The notes under the pieces: model-generated
Databases searched by the model: none
Told to the model about the DNA's origin: nothing
Seen by the model: only the letters and a program-made list of their open reading frames with translations
Program-made: the position numbers and the translations under genes
Shown: piece by piece, positions 19,053-36,362 of the stretch
How the letters are laid out: each line of letters starts with the position of its first letter
Numbering within the stretch: position 1 is the first letter of the stretch
NCBI GenBank assembly: GCA_947626225.1
Contig: CANQRH010000009.1
Coordinates: forward strand, 1 to 36,362
Direction of reading: 5' to 3'
Length of the DNA: 36,362 bases
DNA from: Candidatus Gastranaerophilales bacterium
GTDB taxonomy: Bacteria; Cyanobacteriota; Vampirovibrionia; Gastranaerophilales; Gastranaerophilaceae

Positions 19053-19928
19053 TTATTGGTCATTTGTAGATTTGGTTTTCGGATACTTCATATTGCTGTG
19101 TTCAATAATCCATTTTGAACATGTCGATCCTTGATCATTCAAATAACAATCTGGATTGGAAGTGGTGCTGGTAACCCTGACTGGTACATTAAAATGTCCT
19201 GTCGGTCTTAACTTGAAATGAAATATATCCTTGCCGTATTGGTTTGGTTTTTTATTAAACCCGTTTACATCCACCCAAAATACAGCACAAATATCTCCGG
19301 GTTGCATTTTATCCCCCGGTTCATCATTACTGCAAGCGAGATGATCATTTCGGGATTTCCCTCCGGAAGATGTTCTCATCCAAGCATCCATTCCGTCAGA
19401 AGTCCTGAATTTCGCATATTGAGTGGTATTATAATTGGTACTCCATTTCTCTCCGCTAAGATAAAGCTTGTCTGACGGTACTTGCAATGAGCAATCCGTT
19501 GTCTCGGCATAAGATTTATTATCTTCTTTAAGTCCTTCTTCCACGCAATCATCAACAACTTTTATATACGGCTTTATATACTTACTATACGTAAGCTGTG
19601 ATCCGCCTAGCATTGCATGTTTGTTATCCCAGTTTTCCGGTGAGCCGTTTTCAAGAATAGAAAGGGCTATTGCCTGTGACATCATGGAATCAAATTTTTT
19701 AACCTTATTAACTGTTACTATTTCCTGATATTTATTAATAATCGGCGGTATAACCAAAACTGCAATTACACCTATTATACCGATAGTGATTAAAGTTTCG
19801 GCGAGAGTAAAAGCTGATTTACTCCGAAAGCTTGTATTATTGCAATCCCCCGATAAAAAATTACGCAAAACATTAATTACACAAGCCTTGCGGGGGGGGG
19901 GGCAATAGCGAAGAATGTTGTTATTCAT
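19053..19928 (-). CDS. Prepilin-like (type IV pilin/pseudopilin-like) protein with a C11 tract in its leader
   Basis: 291 aa. The prepilin signal is SKSA|FTLAETLITIGIIGV with Glu at +5, followed by the long hydrophobic helix and IPPIINKYQEIVTVNKVKKFD, the usual start of the pilin N-terminal helix. The remaining 220 residues form a secreted globular domain with several Cys that could make disulphides (DCVEEG, DCSLQ, LACSNDE, NPDCYLN, STCSKW). Processing by a prepilin peptidase and assembly by a type II/IV-like machine are expected; no such genes are nearby. GGAGGT precedes the ATG. The leader before the cleavage site is unusually long (about 38 residues) and is interrupted by a homopolymer (19892-19902). 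Only 11 Cs keep the frame, so expression may be phase variable. Confidence 0.85.
   Translation of the reverse strand: MNNNILRYCPPPRKACVINVLRNFLSGDCNNTSFRSKSAFTLAETLITIGIIGVIAVLVIPPIINKYQEIVTVNKVKKFDSMMSQAIALSILENGSPENWDNKHAMLGGSQLTYSKYIKPYIKVVDDCVEEGLKEDNKSYAETTDCSLQVPSDKLYLSGEKWSTNYNTTQYAKFRTSDGMDAWMRTSSGGKSRNDHLACSNDEPGDKMQPGDICAVFWVDVNGFNKKPNQYGKDIFHFKLRPTGHFNVPVRVTSTTSNPDCYLNDQGSTCSKWIIEHSNMKYPKTKSTNDQ
19892..19902 (-). repeat. C11 homopolymer (G11 on + strand) in the prepilin leader
   Basis: Eleven cytosines on the coding strand at codons 9-13 encode Cys-Pro-Pro-Pro-Arg. Loss of one C gives a stop (GTG TAA) about 17 codons into the gene. Gain of one gives a stop (AAT TAA) at nearly the same place. 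The tract therefore works as a potential on/off switch in a genome with few G/C runs. A sequencing-length error is the alternative. Confidence 0.7.
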
Positions 19929-25180: not shown

Positions 25181-25205
25181 AAAGAGGCGAAAGCCTCTTT
25201 TTTTA
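25181..25205 (+). terminator. Intrinsic terminator of the flagellar operon
   Basis: AAAGAGGC (25181-25188), GAAA loop, GCCTCTTT (25193-25200), then an unbroken T-run to 25204. A GNRA-type tetraloop caps a perfect 8-bp stem. Confidence 0.93.
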
Positions 25206-25210
25206 TGTAC

Positions 25211-25239
25211 TTGAAAAATTTTCAAAAATGTAATATAAT
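25211..25239 (+). promoter_or_regulatory. Strong sigma-70-type promoter of the S74 fibre gene
   Basis: TTGAAA (25211-25216), a 17-bp spacer and a perfect TATAAT (25234-25239) lie 24 nt before the ATG at 25264, with AAGGAG between them. Confidence 0.85.
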
Positions 25240-25263
25240 TTTGTCAAAATAAGGAGCTTAAGT

Positions 25264-27537
25264 ATGAATGTGAGAAAAAATTTAAGAGCCCGTGAGCTTG
25301 GCATGCTCATCGGGAGCTCTCGGCAAACGAGAGGTTTAGGTAATTTCAGCCGTTTTAATTATTATGCGTTTTCGCTTGCGGAAATGATGGTAGTCATGCT
25401 TATAATGAGCATTGTTTTGGCTGCGATGGCGCCGATGATTACAACGAGGATAAAAGCCGATCAGGCATTGAAAGCAGCCGGAATAGCATCATCAGGCGGA
25501 AGTTCGGATAACGAAGGCCCGTGGAAATGGGTTGAAAATTCGGATACAGATGCGTATTCAGAGGCTTCAAGAAACATGATAGGTCAAACCGAAGCCGAAA
25601 CTAAAGATGGCGATGCAATGCTGATTATCAATACCGGAGATGATAATAAAGATGGCATTTTGTTCAAGGGTATGGCAAATAGTTACAAGGACAAATTTGC
25701 CGGACATATTAAAATGCTCAGAACAAAATCCGGTTCAAGTTACTATGACAATTTAATTATGGGTACAATAGTTTCATATTCCGAAGGGTGGGATGGAGCT
25801 GTAGCAGTTGGTTTTGATAATCGACCGAATGATTTAAATTGTGTTTTATTCGGACGTGGTAATTCGACTTATTGGCCGTATTCTACGGCAATTGGATTTA
25901 ATAATTCCGTAAGTGCCAAAAGAACCCCGGGCTATTCTACTGCAGTGGGGTATGGAAACAGTTCAAATTCTTCATATACTCTGTTAGTTGGGTATCAGAA
26001 CGAAACCAAATCCGATTATCAAGGACCTGTAAATTTTAGTCAAAATCAAGGTCCTTATGGTGATTATATATATTATCCGACAGAAAATACTCTGGTAGGT
26101 TATAAAAATGCAGTAATTGCAAACGGTGCCTCTGTATTCGGATACTCTAATACGGTAAGGGCAAATAATGCATCGGCTTTTGGGTATAAAAATAATGTAA
26201 TTGTAAGCCGAAGCCATACAAGTGATGTTCCGTCCTTTGCGTGCGGAACTTCCAATACCGTATATACAGGATTTGCAGTAGGTTCTAATAATTCAATTGA
26301 TGGCGGCTATTTTACGGTTGGTAAGAGTAATTCATGTACAAACGGATCTGCAGTTGGCGTAAGTAATACCGCAACAGGCGGAATGGCATTTGGAACCAGT
26401 AATAAAACTTCTGCAGGTTATGTTTTTGGATATGGTAATAATTCTTCTTCATCCGATGTTTTTGGTTTTGCCAATAGTGTTACATCAACAGGTTGTGGCG
26501 AGACTACAGTCATAGGTTGTCGTAATGAAATTACCGTCGATTCTAATTATAGTTTTGTGGCAGGGCATAAGAACAGTATTTCTTCCCCTTCCTCTTATTA
26601 TGGTTCTAACACTGTGGTCGGTGTTTCAAATAAAGTTAGTAATGGCAAGGGCATGGCAACAGTAGTGGGATTAGGTAATGAAGTCAGCGCTCAAGAAGCG
26701 GTAGCTATGGGGCGTAAGACTATTGCTTCGGGAGATTATTCTTTGGCTGTGGGTACTGAGACAACCAGCTGGGGTTCATACACAAAGGCTTCCGGAAAAT
26801 ACTCAGTGGCGGTTGGGGGCAGTTGTACGTCATCAGGAGAGTATGCATTATCTTTTGGTACAATAAGTACAGCATCCGGAATCGGTTCTATAGCTATAGG
26901 ACACAGAGCTGTTGCTAAAGGAGATTATTCTGTTGCCATCGGCTCTACCCAAGATTCCGGTACAGTTGAACCACCAAAAGCTAATGCTGACTGGTCTGTA
27001 GCAATCGGATATGGCGCAGTAGCAGATAACCCTTATGATGTTGTGATTGGTACGCCTTATTATTCTACAGTCAGAGTCCCCATCTTACAAGCATCGATTC
27101 TTAGGGTTGGCAACGGATCTTCCGGCAACGAAGTTCTTTTAGTTAATGGCGGGGTGGTTACCGTCGACGGTACACTTAAAGTTAACGGTACAACGGTCCA
27201 ATCGGACAAACGCCTAAAATATATTAAAGGTGAAAATAAAAACGGATTAGACGCAATCAAAAAGATAAAAGTCTACAACTTCACCTTCAAAAAAGATAAA
27301 GACAAAGAACCCAGAGTCGGCGTCATAGCACAGGAACTTCAAAAAATTCTTCCCGATGCCGTTAAAAAAGGCTCAGACGGGTTCTTAACCATTCGTATAG
27401 ATGACATCATCTATACGCTAGTCAATGCCGTAAAAGAACTTGATAAAAAAGTTTCCGAACTAACCCAAACCTTAAAACAGGTTCAAGCGGAACAAAAACG
27501 AATTAATCAGCGGCTCGATGCGTTGGAGAGAAAGTAA
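25264..27537 (+). CDS. Prepilin-signal / YadA-like head repeat / peptidase-S74 chaperone fusion
   Basis: 757 aa. (1) Residues 1-36: a basic leader. (2) YYA|FSLAEMMVVMLIMSIVLA, a prepilin peptidase site and anchor helix. (3) About residues 150-620: repeats of the trimeric-autotransporter head type, built on [ST]xAxGxxNxxxA, for example STAVGYGNSSNSSYTLLVGY, SAFGYKNNV and SVAIGYGAVADNPYDVVIG. (4) From about residue 640: VQSDKRLKYIKG, then GVIAQELQKILPDAVKK and IDDIIYTLVNAVKELDKK, the intramolecular chaperone of phage tail fibres (peptidase S74), with the self-cleavage Ser647 and Lys652 present, then a coiled-coil tail. Known: S74 domains trimerise fibres and then cleave themselves off. Inference: a trimeric, self-trimmed fibre held by a pilin-type membrane helix. 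Confidence 0.85.
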   Translation: MNVRKNLRARELGMLIGSSRQTRGLGNFSRFNYYAFSLAEMMVVMLIMSIVLAAMAPMITTRIKADQALKAAGIASSGGSSDNEGPWKWVENSDTDAYSEASRNMIGQTEAETKDGDAMLIINTGDDNKDGILFKGMANSYKDKFAGHIKMLRTKSGSSYYDNLIMGTIVSYSEGWDGAVAVGFDNRPNDLNCVLFGRGNSTYWPYSTAIGFNNSVSAKRTPGYSTAVGYGNSSNSSYTLLVGYQNETKSDYQGPVNFSQNQGPYGDYIYYPTENTLVGYKNAVIANGASVFGYSNTVRANNASAFGYKNNVIVSRSHTSDVPSFACGTSNTVYTGFAVGSNNSIDGGYFTVGKSNSCTNGSAVGVSNTATGGMAFGTSNKTSAGYVFGYGNNSSSSDVFGFANSVTSTGCGETTVIGCRNEITVDSNYSFVAGHKNSISSPSSYYGSNTVVGVSNKVSNGKGMATVVGLGNEVSAQEAVAMGRKTIASGDYSLAVGTETTSWGSYTKASGKYSVAVGGSCTSSGEYALSFGTISTASGIGSIAIGHRAVAKGDYSVAIGSTQDSGTVEPPKANADWSVAIGYGAVADNPYDVVIGTPYYSTVRVPILQASILRVGNGSSGNEVLLVNGGVVTVDGTLKVNGTTVQSDKRLKYIKGENKNGLDAIKKIKVYNFTFKKDKDKEPRVGVIAQELQKILPDAVKKGSDGFLTIRIDDIIYTLVNAVKELDKKVSELTQTLKQVQAEQKRINQRLDALERK

Positions 27538-36063: not shown

Positions 36064-36362
36064 ATTCCCCCCCCCCAGGCAACAAAAAATCAGCATAGCT
36101 ATGCATATAATAAATTCTATAATTAAAATTGGTAAAAATATATTAAATAATTTTTTATACTTTTTAACTCTTTGCTTAAATTTTGCGAAATGGGAAAAAT
36201 CTTCATCTGTAATGATATCAATAAATTTCTTGCTCTGCAAATATAATGAAATGTGATGTTTAAACAGTAAATATCTTATTGATTTAAAATTTTTTTTGTA
36301 AACCTGTGTCATGCATGGTTCTGAGCCAAGTTTACGATAAAAATAAAGAACATCATTAACTT
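36061..36362 (-). CDS. Partial unknown protein with a C-terminal membrane segment
   Basis: The frame is open from the window edge (36362) to a TGA at 36061-36063, so about 100 C-terminal residues are visible; an ATG at 36312 is in frame but the reading continues upstream (FYRKLGSEPCMTQVYKK), making it probably internal. The visible part is basic, then has one strong transmembrane helix (LFNIFLPILIIEFIICIAMLIFCC) and ends LGGGN in the G10 tract. No family recognised. Confidence 0.55.
   Translation of the reverse strand, partial: VNDVLYFYRKLGSEPCMTQVYKKNFKSIRYLLFKHHISLYLQSKKFIDIITDEDFSHFAKFKQRVKKYKKLFNIFLPILIIEFIICIAMLIFCCLGGGN
36067..36076 (-). repeat. G10 homopolymer (C10 on + strand) at a gene/pseudogene junction
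   Basis: Ten Gs on the minus strand encode Gly-Gly-Gly just before the TGA of the right-edge gene, and the adhesin remnant begins in the same frame right after that stop. One base more or fewer would replace the terminal Asn with tails of about 11 or 34 residues. Confidence 0.75.

Follow-up and report, generated by a model that had tools for sequence, protein, structure and literature searches.

The locus examined here raises the question of what a bacterium makes of a single protein that begins as a prepilin, continues as the head of a trimeric adhesin and ends in an S74 domain of the kind found on phage tail fibres. It lies on a contig of Candidatus Gastranaerophilales bacterium (GCA_947626225.1, CANQRH010000009.1), analysed over its 36,362 nt and called the window below. 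A preliminary description made from sequence alone had placed a 757-aa reading frame at 25264-27537, joining a prepilin signal, YadA-type head repeats and an S74 chaperone with a Ser647/Lys652 pair, behind a promoter TTGAAA-17-TATAAT. The coordinates, length and frame held, as did the three modules in one chain (all with Pfam matches), the residue pair (at exactly those positions and invariant in relatives) and the promoter (by consensus match only). Its "collagen-like stacking" of the head repeats failed, as YadA heads form a left-handed parallel beta-roll, and the gene family, the putatively phase-variable leaders and the regulators reported here were absent from it. The features of the window copy are as follows.

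25181-25200: terminator closing the flagellar genes, just 5' of the P0001 promoter
25211..25239 (+): sigma-70-type promoter TTGAAA-17-TATAAT, 11/12 match, consensus only
25251..25256 (+): ribosome-binding site AAGGAG, 7 nt 5' of the ATG, consensus match only
25264..27537 (+): gene P0001, 757-aa prepilin / YadA-head / S74 protein (ORF translation and Pfam)
25264..25368 (+): leader, codons 1-35; removal by prepilin peptidase expected between A35 and F36
25369..25476 (+): pilin alpha-1 helix, residues 36-71, with Glu40 as E5 (N_methyl match; helix 38-71 in the model)
25702..27081 (+): YadA-like left-handed beta-roll head, residues 147-606 (Pfam, periodicity, model, structure matches)
27202..27534 (+): S74 / intramolecular-chaperone-autocleavage (ICA) tail, residues 647-757 (Pfam, dyad conservation, fragment model, fold match)
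27202-27204 and 27217-27219 (+): codons of Ser647 and Lys652; cut expected between Q646 and S647
27397..27531 (+): C-terminal helix, residues 712-756, expected to form the chaperone's trimeric coiled coil (models; MyRF ICA precedent, PMC8326128)
27563..27868 (+): repeat array, unit ~64 bp, containing hairpins GGTTCGCT..GCGAACG; present 3' of 10/10 copies in this genome
27929..27951 (+): intrinsic terminator common to the cassettes (terminator prediction; comparison of 3' flanks)

P0001 is bordered by flagellar genes and recN. The window copy stands alone and is not part of a pilus operon; a search against a defence-system library gave no match.

Modules and predicted fold of P0001

The three modules follow one another along the chain as N_methyl (residues 34-55, 24.6 bits, cut-off 21.2), YadA_head (six stretches, 62.5 bits, cut-off 25) and Peptidase_S74 (PF13884, residues 647-701, 53.7 bits, cut-off 22), all above the curated Pfam cut-offs. 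A lack of S74 or YadA HMM matches, which the preliminary description had named as a refutation, did not occur. NCBIfam models of YadA heads, Ata heads and the prepilin domain matched in part, and PHROGs placed the tail with phage tail-fibre families. The Pfam scan found no YadA_anchor outer-membrane barrel in P0001, whose C-terminus is occupied by S74 instead. The class III signal reads F36 S L A E40, with a hydrophobic helix and Glu at +5. The residue at -1 is Ala where Gly is canonical; this is no oddity of P0001, because 15 of the 23 other prepilins examined in the genome (one of them a truncated family member) share it. The periodicity of the head far exceeds what composition would give, with 26 hydrophobic-hydrophobic-Gly sites versus 6.9 in shuffled sequences, and 15 such sites spaced 11-16 residues apart versus 0.5.

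The full-length protein was modelled with AlphaFold2 on 27 relatives, as a monomer only; no trimer was modelled. The model shows a helix at 38-71, a beta-roll from about 147 to 606 (pLDDT about 90 over residues 470-600) and a helix at 712-756. Among PDB entries it comes closest to the heads of trimeric autotransporters, and the P0001 head superposes on YadA (1p9h) with Z 17.9 and 1.6 A over 137 residues. Residues 72-146 are of low confidence, and no canonical pilin beta-sheet domain was recognised there. Because the S74 core was poorly predicted in this model, the fragment 605-757 was folded alone on 78 relatives, which gave pLDDT above 90 across the core. This fragment matches the ICA domain of MyRF (7dc3_B; Foldseek E 1.8e-5; Z 8.7, 2.7 A/107 residues, 32% identity), with further fold matches to endosialidase (3gw6), 3gud and the T5 fibre (4uw8). 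The tail is thus predicted by the model to have the ICA fold with a C-terminal coiled coil.

The catalytic residues point the same way. S647 and K652 are invariant among the 27 full-length relatives, and the SD and K of the SDxxxK Ser-Lys dyad are invariant across 78 aligned S74 domains. In MyRF, either S587A or K592A abolishes cleavage, and cutting requires the trimer (PMC8326128); in Bdellovibrio Bd3182, the S74 domain cuts its own chain and S782A blocks cutting (PMC10769870). Trimerization and self-cleavage of P0001 are inferred by homology only, because they rest on these precedents and on the invariance of the equivalent residues. The proposal in the preliminary description that the protein trimerises, cuts off its own tail and stays attached through a pilin helix is in this sense well supported and unproven, backed by the module folds, the invariant dyad and the pilus machinery genes.

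A family of prepilin-S74 genes and their leaders

The genome encodes one prepilin peptidase, a PilB adjoining a secretin and two PilT-like ATPases, and its 1.59 Mb hold 45 N_methyl matches. Five near-identical prepilins (KKFSAFTLAEVLITLGIIGVVAAMTMPTLINQTNGAQ) scattered through the genome (L080-L083) are possible major pilins. Eleven S74 loci were found, ten of which encode prepilin / head / S74 proteins of 564-757 aa, and every YadA_head match in the genome falls within these ten. The eleventh S74 protein (276 aa, L011:5047-5877) has no pilin start and, judging by sequence, is probably a prophage structural protein. A truncated family member (L073:849-1721; C1:139348-140220) has no S74 domain, carries a divergent XRE gene and ends against another pilin gene. 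Across the ten copies the ends are conserved and the heads vary: mean identity reaches 88% in the first 40 residues of the mature chain, only 43% in the middle and 93% in the tail.

A survey across the lineage, as the preliminary description had called for, showed that the prepilin / YadA-head / S74 architecture recurs across Gastranaerophilales. A single-sequence scan of a genome-contig collection with P0001 gave no matches, and a search with the S74 alignment gave 402. S74 was present in 36 of 58 genomes in the sample of close relatives (maximum 11 copies) and in 84 of 292 in the phylum sample, most of these genomes belonging to the same family; the named relatives are Candidatus Gastranaerophilales MAGs. 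Two other families of the order, f6 and f7, have prepilin-S74 genes within runs of four to five pilin-like genes that resemble minor-pilin operons. Five loci (L057, L058, L059, L060 and L061) are runs of this size with at least two tandem S74 pilins of differing sequence, from which a heterotrimer is conceivable.

Two copies hold conserved positions in several species, one beside panD and the other beside a gene for a 275-aa protein (MVTEEHLYSDIP). The S74 sequences nevertheless cluster by genome and not by locus, the clade of this genome having support of 100/100. An AU test rejected a single clade of panD copies (2.8e-5), and the locus beside the 275-aa gene was likewise rejected; both rejections persist when this genome and distant families are left out (2.5e-12 and 3.0e-5). 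At a third locus (hemW) a single clade was not rejected (AU p 0.087), and this locus therefore gives no evidence of exchange. In one species, G004, the head encoded at panD shares 83% identity with the head that another species (G026) has at the 275-aa-gene locus. Grouping of S74 by genome together with head sharing is the kind of distribution expected from gene conversion or allele exchange. The homogenization of S74 parts is not very recent, because the median dS of this part among the copies of this genome is 0.29.

An array of the ~64-bp repeat lies 3' of every one of the ten genes, where 21 of 22 strict matches genome-wide are located versus 0.08 expected. Strict exclusivity was rejected, since two isolated pieces (C1:133922-133955 and L044:9803-9876) occur at sites without a nearby S74 gene. 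The arrays are absent from the copies of other species that were examined; a role in recombination is for this reason only a suggestion.

The leaders of several copies carry homopolymeric G tracts. In five relatives, G9 or G10 comes after a ribosome-binding site and start codon, and the frame read beyond the tract lacks the pilin motif (OFF); in other copies, G10 or G11 leaves the motif in frame (ON). Of the 46 copies from named genomes whose N-terminus could be read, some being loci also in the ON set, roughly a third (13; 8 OFF and 5 ON) have G9-G11 between an ATG preceded by a ribosome-binding site and the cleavage site. A divergent XRE gene stands at 6 of the 46, and tract and XRE gene occur together in none. 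Genome-wide, 27 G/C tracts of 8 or more were counted, of which 8 fall in the leaders of the 45 pilins versus 0.1 expected (P about 7e-14). Some of the remaining long tracts, which lie in or just 5' of other ORFs, may judging by sequence belong to surface-polysaccharide or transferase-like genes.

Two S74 copies of this genome bear tracts, C4 (G10, at C4:157328) and C2a (G11, at C2:38464). The window copy shares its leader with both, with GGG at 25312-25314 in place of the tract. A simple-sequence contingency locus is marked by a long homopolymer that separates the start codon from the mature protein, along with ON and OFF frames in related copies; C4, C2a and the 13 of 46 copies fit this description, and the window copy, its leader tract lost and its frame locked ON, does not. 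An XRE regulator as constant partner of the family was rejected, as it adjoins six of the ten copies here and is missing at the window copy; XRE genes also adjoin non-S74 pilins. With neither tract nor regulator, the window copy is probably constitutively translatable, an inference from its sequence. Because the leader is cut off, slippage in the tract-bearing copies would switch expression without altering the mature adhesin. Phase variation itself is inferred: it rests on the tracts and on the ON and OFF frames among copies, and no length change within a population was seen.

A second prepilin of the window, P0002 (291 aa, 19053-19928, minus strand), has a run of about eleven C at 19892-19902 in its leader codons. 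It is likely a phase-variable pilin, ON as assembled, with an ATG and a good ribosome-binding site before the tract. A run of ten G/C at 36067-36076, near the contig end and in or beside a truncated minus-strand ORF, may mark another phase-variable gene.

Proposed mechanism and rival explanations

The best explanation is that P0001 is a modular, probably homotrimeric minor pilin acting as an adhesin, one of a switchable repertoire of ten genes; we regard this as likely. What the analysis itself establishes is the set of modules with their folds, the conservation of the dyad, the presence of pilus machinery genes, the family of paralogues, and the leader tracts with their reading frames. The trimer, self-cleavage, tip display and adhesion are inferred, there being no expression, cleavage or binding data for P0001, and so are its processing and incorporation into a filament. 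In the proposed sequence of events, the chain would insert into the inner membrane via its pilin helix, and the C-terminal coiled coil and S74 domain would gather three chains in the periplasm, after which the YadA-type beta-roll would fold. The S647/K652 dyad would then cut between Q646 and S647, freeing a 12.8-kDa chaperone; PilD would cut between A35 and F36, and the mature 63-kDa chain (36-646) would be displayed by the type IV pilus machine. The simplest display site would be the pilus tip, as for TcpB or CofB. In sister copies, translation may be switched by G9-G11 slippage in the disposable leader, or the gene may be under a divergent XRE regulator. One caveat on the pilus model is that the filament must accommodate the three pilin helices of the trimer.

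The rival that survives best holds that the pilin helix is a mere inner-membrane anchor, so that the trimer self-cleaves and stays a membrane-bound periplasmic fibre that never enters a filament. In its favour, the window copy is a lone gene outside any pilus operon, no pilin beta-sheet module was recognised in the model, and a head of about 460 residues of beta-roll could fit the periplasm. However, P0001 begins with a complete prepilin signal including E5, the combination of hypervariable heads with putatively phase-variable leaders better suits a surface structure, and relatives stand in runs of pilin genes. We consider this rival unlikely.

Two further rivals are very unlikely. The head could be a ligand carried or released: once S74 had cut, the pilus machine would export the trimer and let it go, much as a pilus-secreted colonization factor is released. 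Secretion of surface factors by systems linked to type IV pili has precedent (TcpF with TcpB, PMC9565799), but the pilin helix of P0001 is covalently joined to the head, and the expected S74 cut takes only the C-terminal tail. Alternatively, S74 could be a peptidase effector acting on other targets and not a self-cleaving chaperone, as suggested by a survey that puts this architecture under predicted peptidase activity (PMC8179133). Against this, its fold and residues match the self-cleaving chaperones of MyRF and endosialidase, the C-terminal coiled coil is present, and the MyRF and Bd3182 domains cut their own chains (PMC8326128, PMC10769870).

A prophage tail fibre, or an assembly join of a pilin start onto a phage gene, is all but excluded: the S74 part does match phage tail-fibre families, but a prepilin start occurs in 0 of 71 viral-contig S74 ORFs with a start versus 66 of 79 in the lineage sample (several of the remainder being cut by contig ends or in phase-OFF frames), the neighbours are flagellar genes and recN, and the best phage identity is about 45% or less. 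An assembly join or frameshift, the other refutation named in the preliminary description, was not seen and is rejected, as ten paralogues and dozens of relatives keep the same N-to-C order.

The switchable minor-pilin adhesin remains the preferred reading. A bolder version would see a full phase- and antigenic-variation system in non-photosynthetic cyanobacteria of the gut, with about ten self-trimerising pilin adhesins at most, each switched by a leader poly-G or its own XRE regulator; heads would be reassorted between loci by gene conversion seeded by the conserved ends and, in this species, by the 3' arrays, and the pilins of the genome in general would share the leader-tract switch. We keep this version as a tentative one, the balance leaning slightly against it.

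Relation to known systems and significance

Parts of this picture are already known, namely prepilin-S74 pilins (PMC8179133), trimeric tip minor pilins (PMC9565799) and bacterial S74 fibres (PMC10769870). The prepilin-S74 architecture (IPR012902-IPR030392) is among the 15 most frequent modular pilins, with a possible peptidase role assigned to it (Raynaud et al. 2021, PMC8179133). Like P0001, those pilins join a prepilin start and S74 in one chain, and the idea that a pilin presents a grafted effector at the pilus tip is common to both. In contrast to our reading of P0001, the survey takes S74 as a possible peptidase, and its main text is without YadA; it is not known to describe multigene variation, a leader tract or a regulator.

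Trimeric autotransporter adhesins (YadA, BpaC, BoaA, UspA1, CbpF) share the head repeat and fold with P0001 (Z 14-20). P0001 differs from them in having no YadA_anchor barrel, in carrying its anchor, a pilin helix, at the opposite end, and in that trimerization is assigned to a removable tail. The preliminary description held that trimeric adhesins are otherwise anchored by an outer-membrane barrel, which is too strong given the trimeric minor pilins TcpB and CofB (PMC9565799) and the Bdellovibrio MAT fibres (PMC10769870). TcpB and CofB of type IVb pili resemble the proposed P0001 as large homotrimeric minor pilins at the pilus tip, whereas no S74 domain, YadA head or self-removed chaperone is described for them. 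The S74 subgroup of MAT fibres (Bd3182), which Bdellovibrio uses to meet varied surfaces, likewise consists of bacterial multigene trimeric fibres with a self-cleaving S74 end; these are described with a signal peptide, a beta-rich domain of ~130 aa and beta-helix tips, whereas P0001 has a prepilin helix and YadA heads (PMC10769870). The chaperone domains of MyRF and endosialidase NF (PMC8326128) share with the P0001 tail the fold, the Ser-Lys dyad and the C-terminal coiled coil, which in P0001 is expected to be trimeric, and differ in upstream domains and biology.

For the switching, the nearest likeness is Neisseria. Its pilC gene has poly-G and its opa genes have repeats in signal-peptide codons, and a 3' Sma/Cla repeat is shared by variable copies; no paper on this 3' repeat was found in the literature searched. 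As in pilC, opa and pilE/pilS (for pilE/pilS variation, see PMC3960869), the present family combines pilus-linked adhesins putatively switched by tracts in the leader with conserved ends and a 3' repeat on variable copies. Unlike Neisseria, the tract sits in a class III prepilin leader, and the copies look complete and are not silent cassettes.

A YadA-type head on a pilin, a chaperone reading of pilin S74, a tract in a prepilin leader and a variable family of such genes appear to be unreported in the literature searched, which held few subscription papers. P0001 suggests how a phage-type folding tail could allow assembly of a trimeric adhesin on a pilus in place of an outer-membrane barrel. 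The prepilin-S74 architecture, common and so far unexplained, may then serve folding and not a peptidase effector function. For Gastranaerophilales, gut bacteria that have mostly not been cultured and about whose attachment little is known, the family offers a candidate system of surface variation.
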